Below, one piece after another: positions 33,314 through 34,958 of a stretch of DNA of 64,000 nt. The stretch comes from Bacteroidetes bacterium 43-93 (GTDB lineage Bacteria; Bacteroidota; Bacteroidia; Chitinophagales; Chitinophagaceae), in the NCBI GenBank assembly GCA_001897855.1, contig MKUO01000008.1:62001-126000 (forward strand). The letters are read 5' to 3'. The notes beneath the pieces are model-generated. The model saw only the letters and a program-made list of their open reading frames with translations, searched no databases and was not told the origin of the DNA. Each line of letters starts with the position of its first letter. Within the stretch, counting starts at the first letter, position 1. Both the position numbers and the translations under genes were made by a program.

Positions 33314-33805
33314 ATGAAAGAGATATTATTACAATATGCCAGATATAATTTATGGGCCAATAAAAAAATCATAGATCTGACACTGGGAATGGTGACAGAA
33401 CACCTGGATAGAGAGGTTGTAAGCAGCTTTTCTTCCATCAAAAGGACAGTATATCACTGCCTCGGTGCTGAAAATATCTGGTTACAGCGGCTATCACTCG
33501 CCGAAAGCCCCGTTTGGATAGGGGATGACTTGGAAATGCCTTATCCCCATGCCTGCAGGCTGTGGCAGGAATCCGGTGAGGAGCTAGTTAACTTCATTGA
33601 GAAACAATTTGATGATAGTGCATTCACGCATATTATGCAGTTTTACGATCGTCAGAAAAGGCCCCATAAACTAGCTGTATGGCAGGTGATACAGCATATG
33701 TGCAATCATAATACCTATCATCGCGGGCAATTGATAACGATGCTTCGCCAACTGGGCGAAACAAAGTTGCCTTCCATGGACTTCAGTGCGTATTGCGAAA
33801 AATAA
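33314..33805 (+). CDS. DinB family protein
   Basis: A 163-aa four-helix-bundle protein of the DinB/YfiT superfamily. The putative metal-binding histidines are in TVYHCLGAENIW and in QHMCNHNTYHRGQL, the C-terminal HxxxH pattern of the family. The N-terminal LQYARYNLWANKKIIDL is the usual first helix. Many relatives are metal-dependent thiol transferases or stress proteins; the specific role is unknown. Its stop codon overlaps a TAACCTTG sequence that may begin the phhA leader transcript. Confidence 0.85.
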   Translation: MKEILLQYARYNLWANKKIIDLTLGMVTEHLDREVVSSFSSIKRTVYHCLGAENIWLQRLSLAESPVWIGDDLEMPYPHACRLWQESGEELVNFIEKQFDDSAFTHIMQFYDRQKRPHKLAVWQVIQHMCNHNTYHRGQLITMLRQLGETKLPSMDFSAYCEK

Positions 33806-33810
33806 CCTTG
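33803..33810 (+). promoter_or_regulatory. Possible -7 element for the phhA leader
   Basis: TAACCTTG, one mismatch from TAnnTTTG, overlapping the dinB-family stop. A start near 33815 would place the leader ATG at 33821 almost at the 5' end. No convincing -33 element; the leader could also be read from the dinB promoter. Confidence 0.3.
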
Positions 33811-33820
33811 TTTACAAAAA

Positions 33821-33907
33821 ATGTCTATTATTGCATCAGTGAGTCCTCGCACCCAAATACTGTCTAACGTATACTATTACTATTCCAAACGATATTGTTC
33901 GGAATAG
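33821..33907 (+). CDS. Tyrosine-rich leader peptide upstream of phenylalanine hydroxylase
   Basis: A 28-codon ORF from ATG at 33821 to TAG at 33905. Residues 18-21 are four consecutive Tyr (codons TAC TAT TAC TAT, 33872-33883) and residue 25 is a fifth Tyr (33893). The stop overlaps the 3' arm of a hairpin whose 5' arm touches the Tyr codons. Downstream are an antiterminator sequence and an intrinsic terminator, then phhA, whose product makes tyrosine. This is the expected architecture of a trp-type leader peptide responding to charged tRNA-Tyr. Expression is inferred. Confidence 0.7.
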   Translation: MSIIASVSPRTQILSNVYYYYSKRYCSE

Positions 33908-33973
33908 CAGCTACGTGTATATAACCATATTATAACTGGCCCGGTTCCGAAAAGGAACCGGGCTTTTTTATTT
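33870..33973 (+). promoter_or_regulatory. Transcription attenuator (1:2, 2:3 and 3:4 hairpins) controlling phhA
   Basis: Hairpin 1:2 pairs CTATTCC (33880-33886) with GGAATAG (33901-33907), extended inward by AAC/GTT and outward by TATAC/GTATA. Antiterminator 2:3 pairs TTCGGAA (33898-33904) with TTCCGAA (33945-33951), a perfect 7 bp. Terminator 3:4 pairs GCCCGGTTCC (33939-33948) with GGAACCGGGC (33954-33963), then TTTTTTATTT. A ribosome stalled on the Tyr run masks segment 1 and frees segment 2; one ending at 33907 masks segment 2. Read directly from the sequence; function is inferred. Confidence 0.72.
33939..33973 (+). terminator. Intrinsic terminator in the phhA leader
   Basis: Perfect 10-bp GC-rich stem, 5-nt loop GAAAA, then TTTTTTATTT. 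It ends about 17 nt before the phhA ATG, too close to act as a simple boundary unless phhA has no promoter of its own beyond it. Confidence 0.92.
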
Positions 33974-33989
33974 CTCACAAATTCCATTT

Positions 33990-34736
33990 ATGAAAAGGAA
34001 CAAACCACTGCAACAGGTGTATGAATTATATACACCCGAAGATTTTAAGGTATGGGATACCTTGTTTAACAGGCAAATGCAATATCTGCATCAGTATGGG
34101 TCGGGGTTATATCTCGACTCGGTAAAGCGTATAGGATTCAATGCCCTTGAAATACCGGATATTAAAAAGACCTCCGAACGATTGTATTGTGCTACAGGAT
34201 GGCAAGTGACTGTGGCGCCTGAATTGGTGCCACAAAAATCTTTCTTTACGTTTCTTTCACAAAAGGTATTCCCGGTTACCTGCTGGCTGCGTACAATGGC
34301 TGAACTGGATTACCTCGAAGAGCCTGATATGTTTCATGATGTGTTTGGGCACCTTCCATTATTAATGGATGACGCATATGCCGGATTTATGGAAGGTATA
34401 GGCAAGCTTGCCATAAAATGGATAGATACGCCTGAGGCCATTAGCCTGCTGGGGCGCATTTATTGGTTTACTATTGAGTTTGGACTTCTTAAAGAAAAAG
34501 GGACACCTAAAATATTTGGCGCGGGGATAGTCTCTTCCCTTGGCGAAACCATAAATAGCATCAGCAATTCGATAGCAAAGAACGAATTTGACCTAAATAC
34601 AATGATCGCTACAGATTACCGTACTGATATCTTGCAGGATAGATATTTTGTTATGGAAAGTACGGAACAGCTTTATAAAAGCTTACCAGCTATAGAAGGC
34701 GCATTATATAACGTTATAGAATGGGTAAGTTTATAA
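33990..34736 (+). CDS. phhA: Phenylalanine 4-monooxygenase (phenylalanine hydroxylase)
   Basis: A 248-aa monomeric-type bacterial aromatic amino acid hydroxylase. It converts phenylalanine to tyrosine with tetrahydropterin and O2 at a non-haem iron. The iron ligands are visible: His116 and His121 in MFHDVFGHLPLL and Glu163 in YWFTIEFGL. It has no N-terminal ACT regulatory domain, as usual for bacteria. A pterin-4a-carbinolamine dehydratase (phhB) is not adjacent. It sits behind a Tyr-codon attenuator, so expression is probably set by tyrosine supply. A very long terminator hairpin follows immediately after the stop. Confidence 0.93.
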   Translation: MKRNKPLQQVYELYTPEDFKVWDTLFNRQMQYLHQYGSGLYLDSVKRIGFNALEIPDIKKTSERLYCATGWQVTVAPELVPQKSFFTFLSQKVFPVTCWLRTMAELDYLEEPDMFHDVFGHLPLLMDDAYAGFMEGIGKLAIKWIDTPEAISLLGRIYWFTIEFGLLKEKGTPKIFGAGIVSSLGETINSISNSIAKNEFDLNTMIATDYRTDILQDRYFVMESTEQLYKSLPAIEGALYNVIEWVSL

Positions 34737-34769
34737 AGAAACAGAGGCTTTTAGGGCCTCTGTTTCTTT
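34735..34769. terminator. Terminator after phhA (shared by convergent small gene)
   Basis: Perfect 14-bp stem from AAAGAAACAGAGGC to GCCTCTGTTTCTTT with a 7-nt loop; the 5' arm overlaps the phhA stop. It has U-rich sequence on both strands, so it also suits the convergent 59-aa gene. Confidence 0.9.
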
Positions 34770-34778
34770 ATGGCGTAT

Positions 34779-34958
34779 TTAATTGCCCTGGTCATTCTTA
34801 CTCTTAGTATTAGCTTTAATGCCCTGCTTGTTATTGTGATCGTGGTAACCTGATTCTTTCTCTTTGCGGCTGTCCAGGTTATCGCGTATCTCGGGTTTCG
34901 GCGTATTTACATGGCCCTGTTTACTTTGCGAATTGTTTTCATTTCTTGACCCTTTCAT
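34779..34958 (-). CDS. Small hydrophilic conserved-type protein (59 aa)
   Basis: A 59-aa ORF below usual length cut-offs. The product is highly charged, Asn/Lys/Gln-rich and has no hydrophobic segment. Its centre reads PKPEIRDNLDSRKEKES, which resembles a motif I recall from small uncharacterised Bacteroidota proteins (PEIRDNLDSR). It sits between a terminator at 34735-34769 and the porin-like gene, in a gap that otherwise holds nothing. Probably real and intrinsically disordered; function unknown. Confidence 0.6.
   Translation of the reverse strand: MKGSRNENNSQSKQGHVNTPKPEIRDNLDSRKEKESGYHDHNNKQGIKANTKSKNDQGN

Follow-up and report, generated by a model that had tools for sequence, protein, structure and literature searches.

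What regulates phhA, the phenylalanine hydroxylase gene of Bacteroidetes bacterium 43-93? We analyzed a stretch of 64,000 nucleotides from this genome (contig MKUO01000008.1, positions 62,001 to 126,000; the window), in which an earlier note had proposed a Tyr-codon attenuator of the trp type. Its parts were a 28-codon ORF with four consecutive Tyr codons and one more, a hairpin 1:2 starting on these codons, a perfect TTCGGAA/TTCCGAA antiterminator, and a terminator with a T run 20 nt ahead of the gene. Re-reading of the sequence found every part where the note had placed it, as follows.

33803–33810, forward strand: weak and uncertain -7 promoter-like element, TAACCTTG, with 5 of the 6 fixed positions of TAnnTTTG
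33821–33907, forward strand: leader peptide ORF of 28 codons, MSIIASVSPRTQILSNVYYYYSKRYCSE; also in G014 and G009
33872–33883, forward strand: control codons, four Tyr in succession (TAC TAT TAC TAT)
33880–33886, forward strand: segment 1 of hairpin 1:2, CTATTCC (from folding and a permutation test)
33893–33895, forward strand: fifth Tyr codon of the leader ORF
33898–33905, forward strand: segment 2, the 5' arm of the antiterminator, TTCGGAAT; 33901–33907 pairs with segment 1 too
33901–33907, forward strand: GGAATAG, the partner of segment 1 in hairpin 1:2
33905: stop codon of the leader ORF
33938–33953, forward strand: segment 3, the 5' arm and loop of the terminator
33938–33964, forward strand: intrinsic terminator hairpin of 11 pairs, with a T run up to 33969
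33944–33951, forward strand: the part of segment 3 that pairs with segment 2, GTTCCGAA
33990–34736, forward strand: phhA, phenylalanine 4-hydroxylase of 248 aa (from profile matches), the putatively regulated gene

The antiterminator core (TTCGGAA at 33898–33904, TTCCGAA at 33945–33951) is perfectly paired and reaches 8 pairs counting one extra G-U. Distances to the phhA start are 25 nt from the terminator and 20 nt from the T run. Only 2 of 200 dinucleotide shuffles folded at least as stably as the leader (z -2.98). The naming of the downstream gene was borne out by profile searches: its product matched Pfam Biopterin_H (E 2.3e-39), as a biopterin-dependent aromatic amino acid hydroxylase, and its best NCBIfam match was phenylalanine 4-monooxygenase (E 4.6e-72), at 242.2 bits narrowly missing the curated cut-off of 247. 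A search of the window matched no Rfam family at gathering score, and a T-box riboswitch was rejected on this result. At the other end of the gene, a strong hairpin (34731–34773, 20 pairs counted) lies between phhA and a convergent small ORF (34779–34958) and is possibly a terminator shared by the two.

Recurrence in relatives was scored by a fixed leader test, which an upstream passed if it had a short ORF containing 3 or more Tyr within 5 codons, followed by a terminator ahead of phhA. The first sample comprised 97 short-PhhA upstreams from 94 genomes of the window's own order and relatives, with second copies in G036, G047 and G060. From 113 matching genomes, 23 were omitted: 17 with a long paralogue only (about 560–640 aa), four that were divergent, broken or cut (G096, G136, G167, G404), and G326 and G336, congeners of G314 and G258; G014, G015, G009 and G023 were added. 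A second set of 80 named loci brought the number of phhA upstreams to 177. For the class-wide sample 103 genomes had a match; 3 of them overlapped with the first sample (G000, G057, G089), 52 were omitted (long paralogues, fragments, weak matches and G690), and 48 were used, each new and with a short PhhA. Some organisms of this sample are also among the 80 named loci. Upstreams of G080, G086 and G470 were shortened by contig ends. The long paralogue, which resembles aromatic amino acid hydroxylases, replaces the short PhhA in the 17 first-sample candidates and in many class-sample candidates.

The fixed test was passed by 26 of the 97 first-sample upstreams and 30 of the 80 named loci, and these 56 of 177 correspond to 46 distinct leaders. 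In the class-wide sample 19 of 48 passed, and among dinucleotide-shuffled upstreams 0 of 485. The 45 leader genomes of the first and class samples span 25 genus groups and 14 family groups of one class. Recurrence of the Tyr run, terminator and antiterminator before phhA in 46 distinct leaders supports the attenuator reading; the terminator is present in every positive leader by definition of the detection rule, and the runs contain 3–6 Tyr. Within the window's own genus group, phhA is found in 3 of 15 genomes (G000, G014, G009), all three with the leader. The peptides of G014 and G009 are MPIIASVSPRTQILSNVYYYYSKRYCSE and MTNIVAVATQHNILANAYYYYSTRYCSE; the leader of G015 contains ...AAAYYYTYFAPYGSE, and that of G027, from a different family group, ...NYYYYYLNPARLGAGS. 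Nearest relatives share peptide tails (YYYYSKRYCSE, YYYYSTRYCSE), and between families the peptides have, by eye, little in common except the Tyr run. Covariance model R1 gave one strong site in the window's own genome and three further matches at E ≥0.26. Among 15 loci with weaker R1 matches (known phhA leaders excluded), 10 were inspected: nine appear to be ordinary terminators or chance, and the tenth is a leader with Phe and Tyr codons that precedes pheA.

The leader ORF is probably translated, because the Tyr frame stays open from an ATG. An ATG ORF spans the run in this frame in 44 of 46 leaders, compared with 4 in the Leu frame and none in the third. The stop-to-terminator distance is likewise tightest in the Tyr frame (sd 5.7 nt vs 28.6 and 37.4 nt in the other two). 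When the same leader test was run for other amino acids (n = 97), Tyr scored 26, Leu 16 and the remaining 18 between 0 and 6. A Leu-codon leader was rejected as a shadow frame, since a TAY run read one base back is always YTA and a Leu ATG ORF occurs in just those four leaders.

For the comparative check of the stems, permutation tests replaced R-scape. The best pairing between the segment-2 region and the terminator arm was scored in 26 cluster representatives, and arms were swapped between leaders. Own arms gave a pairing sum of 486, which 0 of 20,000 permutations reached, versus 372 ± 15 for swapped arms. Base composition does not explain this excess, because a control region upstream of the Tyr run showed no own-arm preference (9.9 own, 9.8 foreign). 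Hairpin 1:2 was supported as well, but more weakly than the 2:3 pairing (398 vs 353 ± 13; reached in 9 of 20,000 permutations). Individual leaders differ, some own arms pairing no better than foreign ones; in G175, 19 of 25 foreign arms did as well. The antiterminator arms are TTCGGAAT/GTTCCGAA in the window, TTTGGAGT/GTTCCAAA in G219, AAGTGGAC/GTCCACTT in G382, CAGGAGCCG/CGGTTCCTG in G073 and ATGAAACGG/CCGTTTCAT in L069. An alignment of 11 sequences from the close clade (A1), in which the terminator columns of L019/L022 are out of register, contained few clean compensatory pairs, partly from gaps in the loop. The case for covariation is therefore made by the permutation test across unrelated leaders.

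The spacing fits a switch set by ribosome position. The start of the Tyr run lies a median of 26 nt from segment 2 (IQR 24–29; search window 18–48 nt), and the stop codon a median of 30 nt from the terminator (IQR 26–34). Folds were predicted for the RNA exposed up to segment 3, assuming a footprint 14 nt ahead of the A site and counting an antiterminator at ≥4 pairs. With the ribosome on the first Tyr codon, 44 of 46 leaders were predicted to form it; with the ribosome at the stop codon none of the 46 was, in agreement with the stall/stop logic of the earlier note. In the window leader, the stalled state is predicted to form 8 antiterminator pairs (-14.0 kcal/mol) and the stop state none; the terminator is predicted at -22.9 kcal/mol. 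With no ribosome and the leader folded to segment 3, the predicted antiterminator persists in 21 of 46 leaders, so that not every leader is clearly off by default; it is absent from the window leader, which is predicted to be off by default. A Tyr-run leader, an intrinsic terminator, a mutually exclusive antiterminator, a 1:2 hairpin and a predicted stall/stop switch are together the parts of a putative trp-type attenuator.

We consider it very probable that a ribosome-mediated transcription attenuator senses charged tRNA-Tyr and controls phhA; from the sequence we infer both the stalling on uncharged tRNA and the direction of the switch. When tyrosine is scarce, low charging of tRNA-Tyr would stall the ribosome on the Tyr run, with segment 1 covered. 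Segment 2 would then pair with segment 3 and block the terminator, and phhA would be transcribed, its product making tyrosine from phenylalanine. With ample tyrosine, the ribosome would reach the stop codon and cover segment 2, the terminator would form, and transcription would end ahead of phhA. If the leader were not translated, hairpin 1:2 would form and phhA would remain off.

A different origin of the terminator was considered, namely that it merely ends the transcript of a DinB-family gene, the Tyr ORF being there by chance and the phhA promoter lying downstream. The DinB-family gene is indeed on the same strand and stops 15 nt before the leader ORF, and the promoter upstream of the leader is weak in the window. 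The -7 promoter motif of Bacteroidota is TAnnTTTG. Of the 46 regions preceding a leader ATG, 15 contain it exactly, against a mean of 3.2 (sd 1.7) after mononucleotide shuffling, and the best match lies ≤30 nt from the ATG in 35 of 46. The window's best match, which overlaps the stop of the DinB-family gene, is imperfect, and G014 is without it; a sigma-70 scan gave 4 promoter-like sites, with 5.5 expected. The candidate promoter upstream of the window leader is weak, and a start here is therefore only putative. Against this origin, G009 and G015 have the identical arrangement of leader and terminator before phhA with different upstream sequence, and just 20 nt separate the T run from the phhA start. 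The failure of all shuffled upstreams in the leader test and the leader-specific antiterminator also count against it, and we regard it as very unlikely.

Equally improbable, in our judgement, is a leader that senses a general slowing of translation, by an antibiotic or through tRNA-Tyr modification such as queuosine, and not tyrosine supply. In its favour, the Tyr codons TAT and TAC are read by queuosine-modified tRNA. An antibiotic-sensing short ORF is also on record (PMC12121999, in the part available). However, the codons specify tyrosine and the regulated enzyme makes tyrosine, the leaders are nearly confined to genomes lacking TyrA, and ordinary product-amino-acid logic is enough. Least probable is a role of the 28 residues as a small protein, with RNA pairing that is incidental: the tails of the nearest relatives are alike, but beyond the nearest clade almost only the Tyr run is common, the pairing segments fall partly within the shared tail, and their complementarity is kept as the letters change.

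TyrA, the prephenate dehydrogenase, was looked for with the PDH_C profile, which had no match across the window's own genus group (15 genomes). The 12 of these without phhA are also without recognisable TyrA and may be tyrosine auxotrophs. In the first sample, all 26 leader genomes were without TyrA, and the leader preceded phhA in 0 of 36 upstreams of TyrA-bearing genomes. PDH_N exceeded its cut-off in 0 of the 58 TyrA-lacking phhA genomes of this sample (G065 and G077, both leaderless, were weakly below). The class sample had 18 leader genomes without TyrA and 1 with it, and 14 leaderless genomes without TyrA and 15 with it. Across both samples, TyrA was absent from 44 of 45 leader genomes, and 1 of 52 upstreams of TyrA-bearing genomes had a leader. 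Only G566 (L224, VINTNIYYYYYPLLNFRIG) combines TyrA with a Tyr leader ahead of phhA.

Absence of TyrA does not always bring the leader with it. The strict test failed for 35 of 61 first-sample upstreams in TyrA-lacking genomes and 14 of 32 in the class sample, or 49 of 93 in both. Some of these have a Tyr-rich short ORF with a terminator not in the required place, and in others nothing is visible. The expectation that relatives would share the Tyr run and antiterminator thus held for many but not for these 35 first-sample upstreams, nor for the 36 in TyrA-bearing genomes; leaderless upstreams qualify the attenuator reading and do not contradict it. By counts, leader and TyrA absence are correlated (Fisher p 5.6e-7 and 1.3e-3). 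On a PhhA tree built by a quick method (142 rows), the leader changed state at least 22 times and TyrA at least 13 times. Supported branches yielded just 5 independent pairs with a difference in TyrA; in these the leader varied, on average, in the expected direction in 2.0, in the opposite direction in 0.2 and not at all in 2.8. Informative pairs are few, nearly all in the expected direction, and over phylogenetically independent pairs the association is not significant (median p 0.5), the link lying mostly between clades. The correlation stands as a count; it is clade-bound and may reflect shared descent.

Other aromatic genes were surveyed in the leader genomes. Of the TyrA-lacking leader genomes, 4 of 26 in the first sample and 8 of 18 in the class sample have prephenate dehydratase; the window's genome does not. 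If assemblies are complete and all enzymes of the Phe step were recognised, the 32 of 44 TyrA-lacking leader genomes without a known Phe step would need to take up phenylalanine. A search for chorismate synthase, limited to the first sample, found it in 23 of 26 leader genomes, that of the window included. Its gene aroC lies 1.2–1.4 kb from phhA in G302, G365, G382 and G284, which is an aromatic-biosynthesis setting. Homogentisate dioxygenase was found in 0 of 45 leader genomes and in 5 of the 35 TyrA-bearing leaderless genomes searched (35 of 51), a soft result, as this is a weak marker and its matches are themselves weak. PhhA in leader genomes looks biosynthetic, as in animals. It is possible, though slightly short of probable, that many lineages of this class lost the prephenate route to tyrosine, and often the phenylalanine route too, leaving O2-dependent hydroxylation of phenylalanine as the sole tyrosine source. 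Tyr attenuators would then have arisen on phhA several times independently, and the leader would mark genomes with PhhA as the only source.

The kind of regulation, trp/phe-type attenuation, is known; its phhA target, Tyr-only sensing and wide spread appear to be new. No described phhA attenuator was found in the largely non-subscription literature searched, and the earlier note knew of none in Bacteroidota. PMC2965389, a genome survey from 2010, has no mention of phenylalanine, tyrosine, phh or Bacteroid in its available main text. The absence of TyrA from nearly all leader genomes is a new observation. Leader-peptide attenuation would thereby gain a Tyr-sensing member that controls phenylalanine hydroxylase. 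This enzyme, whose known role in Pseudomonas is catabolic, becomes likely biosynthetic, with the leader as a sequence mark predicting which of the two roles applies. The result is an account, open to testing, of tyrosine supply and its regulation in bacteria without TyrA, and the phhA leaders can serve directly for comparative work on a new RNA family.

The same enzyme family is used differently elsewhere. Pseudomonas phhABC is activated by PhhR (PMC1173090, in the part available), thus combining catabolic use with a protein activator, whereas leader-bearing phhA would combine biosynthetic use with attenuation. The GapMind authors argued that PAH makes tyrosine in Dyella, Legionella and Echinicola, TyrA being reported missing in the first two and present in Echinicola (PMC7311316, as available). 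These cases would share with leader genomes PhhA as tyrosine maker; the available part of that paper mentions no regulation, whereas attenuation is predicted for the leader genomes.

T-boxes bind tRNA directly. As in the phhA leader, charging of tRNA-Tyr sets expression in those T-boxes that regulate tyrosine genes (described in the available part of PMC1262725). Unlike a T-box, the phhA leader would act through its own translation, and the window has no Rfam match.

Attenuators of aromatic amino acid genes are also found within the same phylum. In Bacteroides thetaiotaomicron a putative attenuator precedes pheA>hisHb>aroA-aroQ>tyrA (Merino list, Table 7, in the available part of PMC1173090). 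In G021, a TyrA-bearing genome of the window's family group, a Phe/Tyr-rich leader (L236, G021:C29:144709-144815, MQKTITYTFFYFFYFKGIAG) and a terminator precede a prephenate dehydratase-like gene, so named from its sequence; this leader mixes Phe and Tyr codons, matches the phhA covariance model at E 0.003, and is read as putative attenuation of the ordinary prephenate route. Both share aromatic amino acid genes and phylum with the phhA leaders but sit on the prephenate route, whereas the leaders of phhA, rich in Tyr, are found mainly in genomes from which TyrA is gone. G302 (L182) and G365 (L183), besides the Tyr leader on phhA, carry two tandem Phe-run leaders (MILNNLHTTTYFFFFSLSN and MKSTLLYRLSNLFNLYYFFFFRKGRTCSIHI) 330 nt upstream of pheA. 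A terminator was detected after the first, a hairpin and T run were seen by eye after the second, and the two are possibly tandem attenuators.

Ribosome-mediated attenuation of amino acid operons of the trp/his/phe type is classic, with E. coli trpL, pheL and pheM. The phhA leader shares with these attenuators an ORF rich in codons for the product, three alternative stems, a terminator before the gene and a stop codon adjoining segment 2 (for a general account, see the available part of PMC1183508). It differs from them in sensing Tyr only, in its target, phenylalanine hydroxylase, and in belonging to the phylum Bacteroidota.
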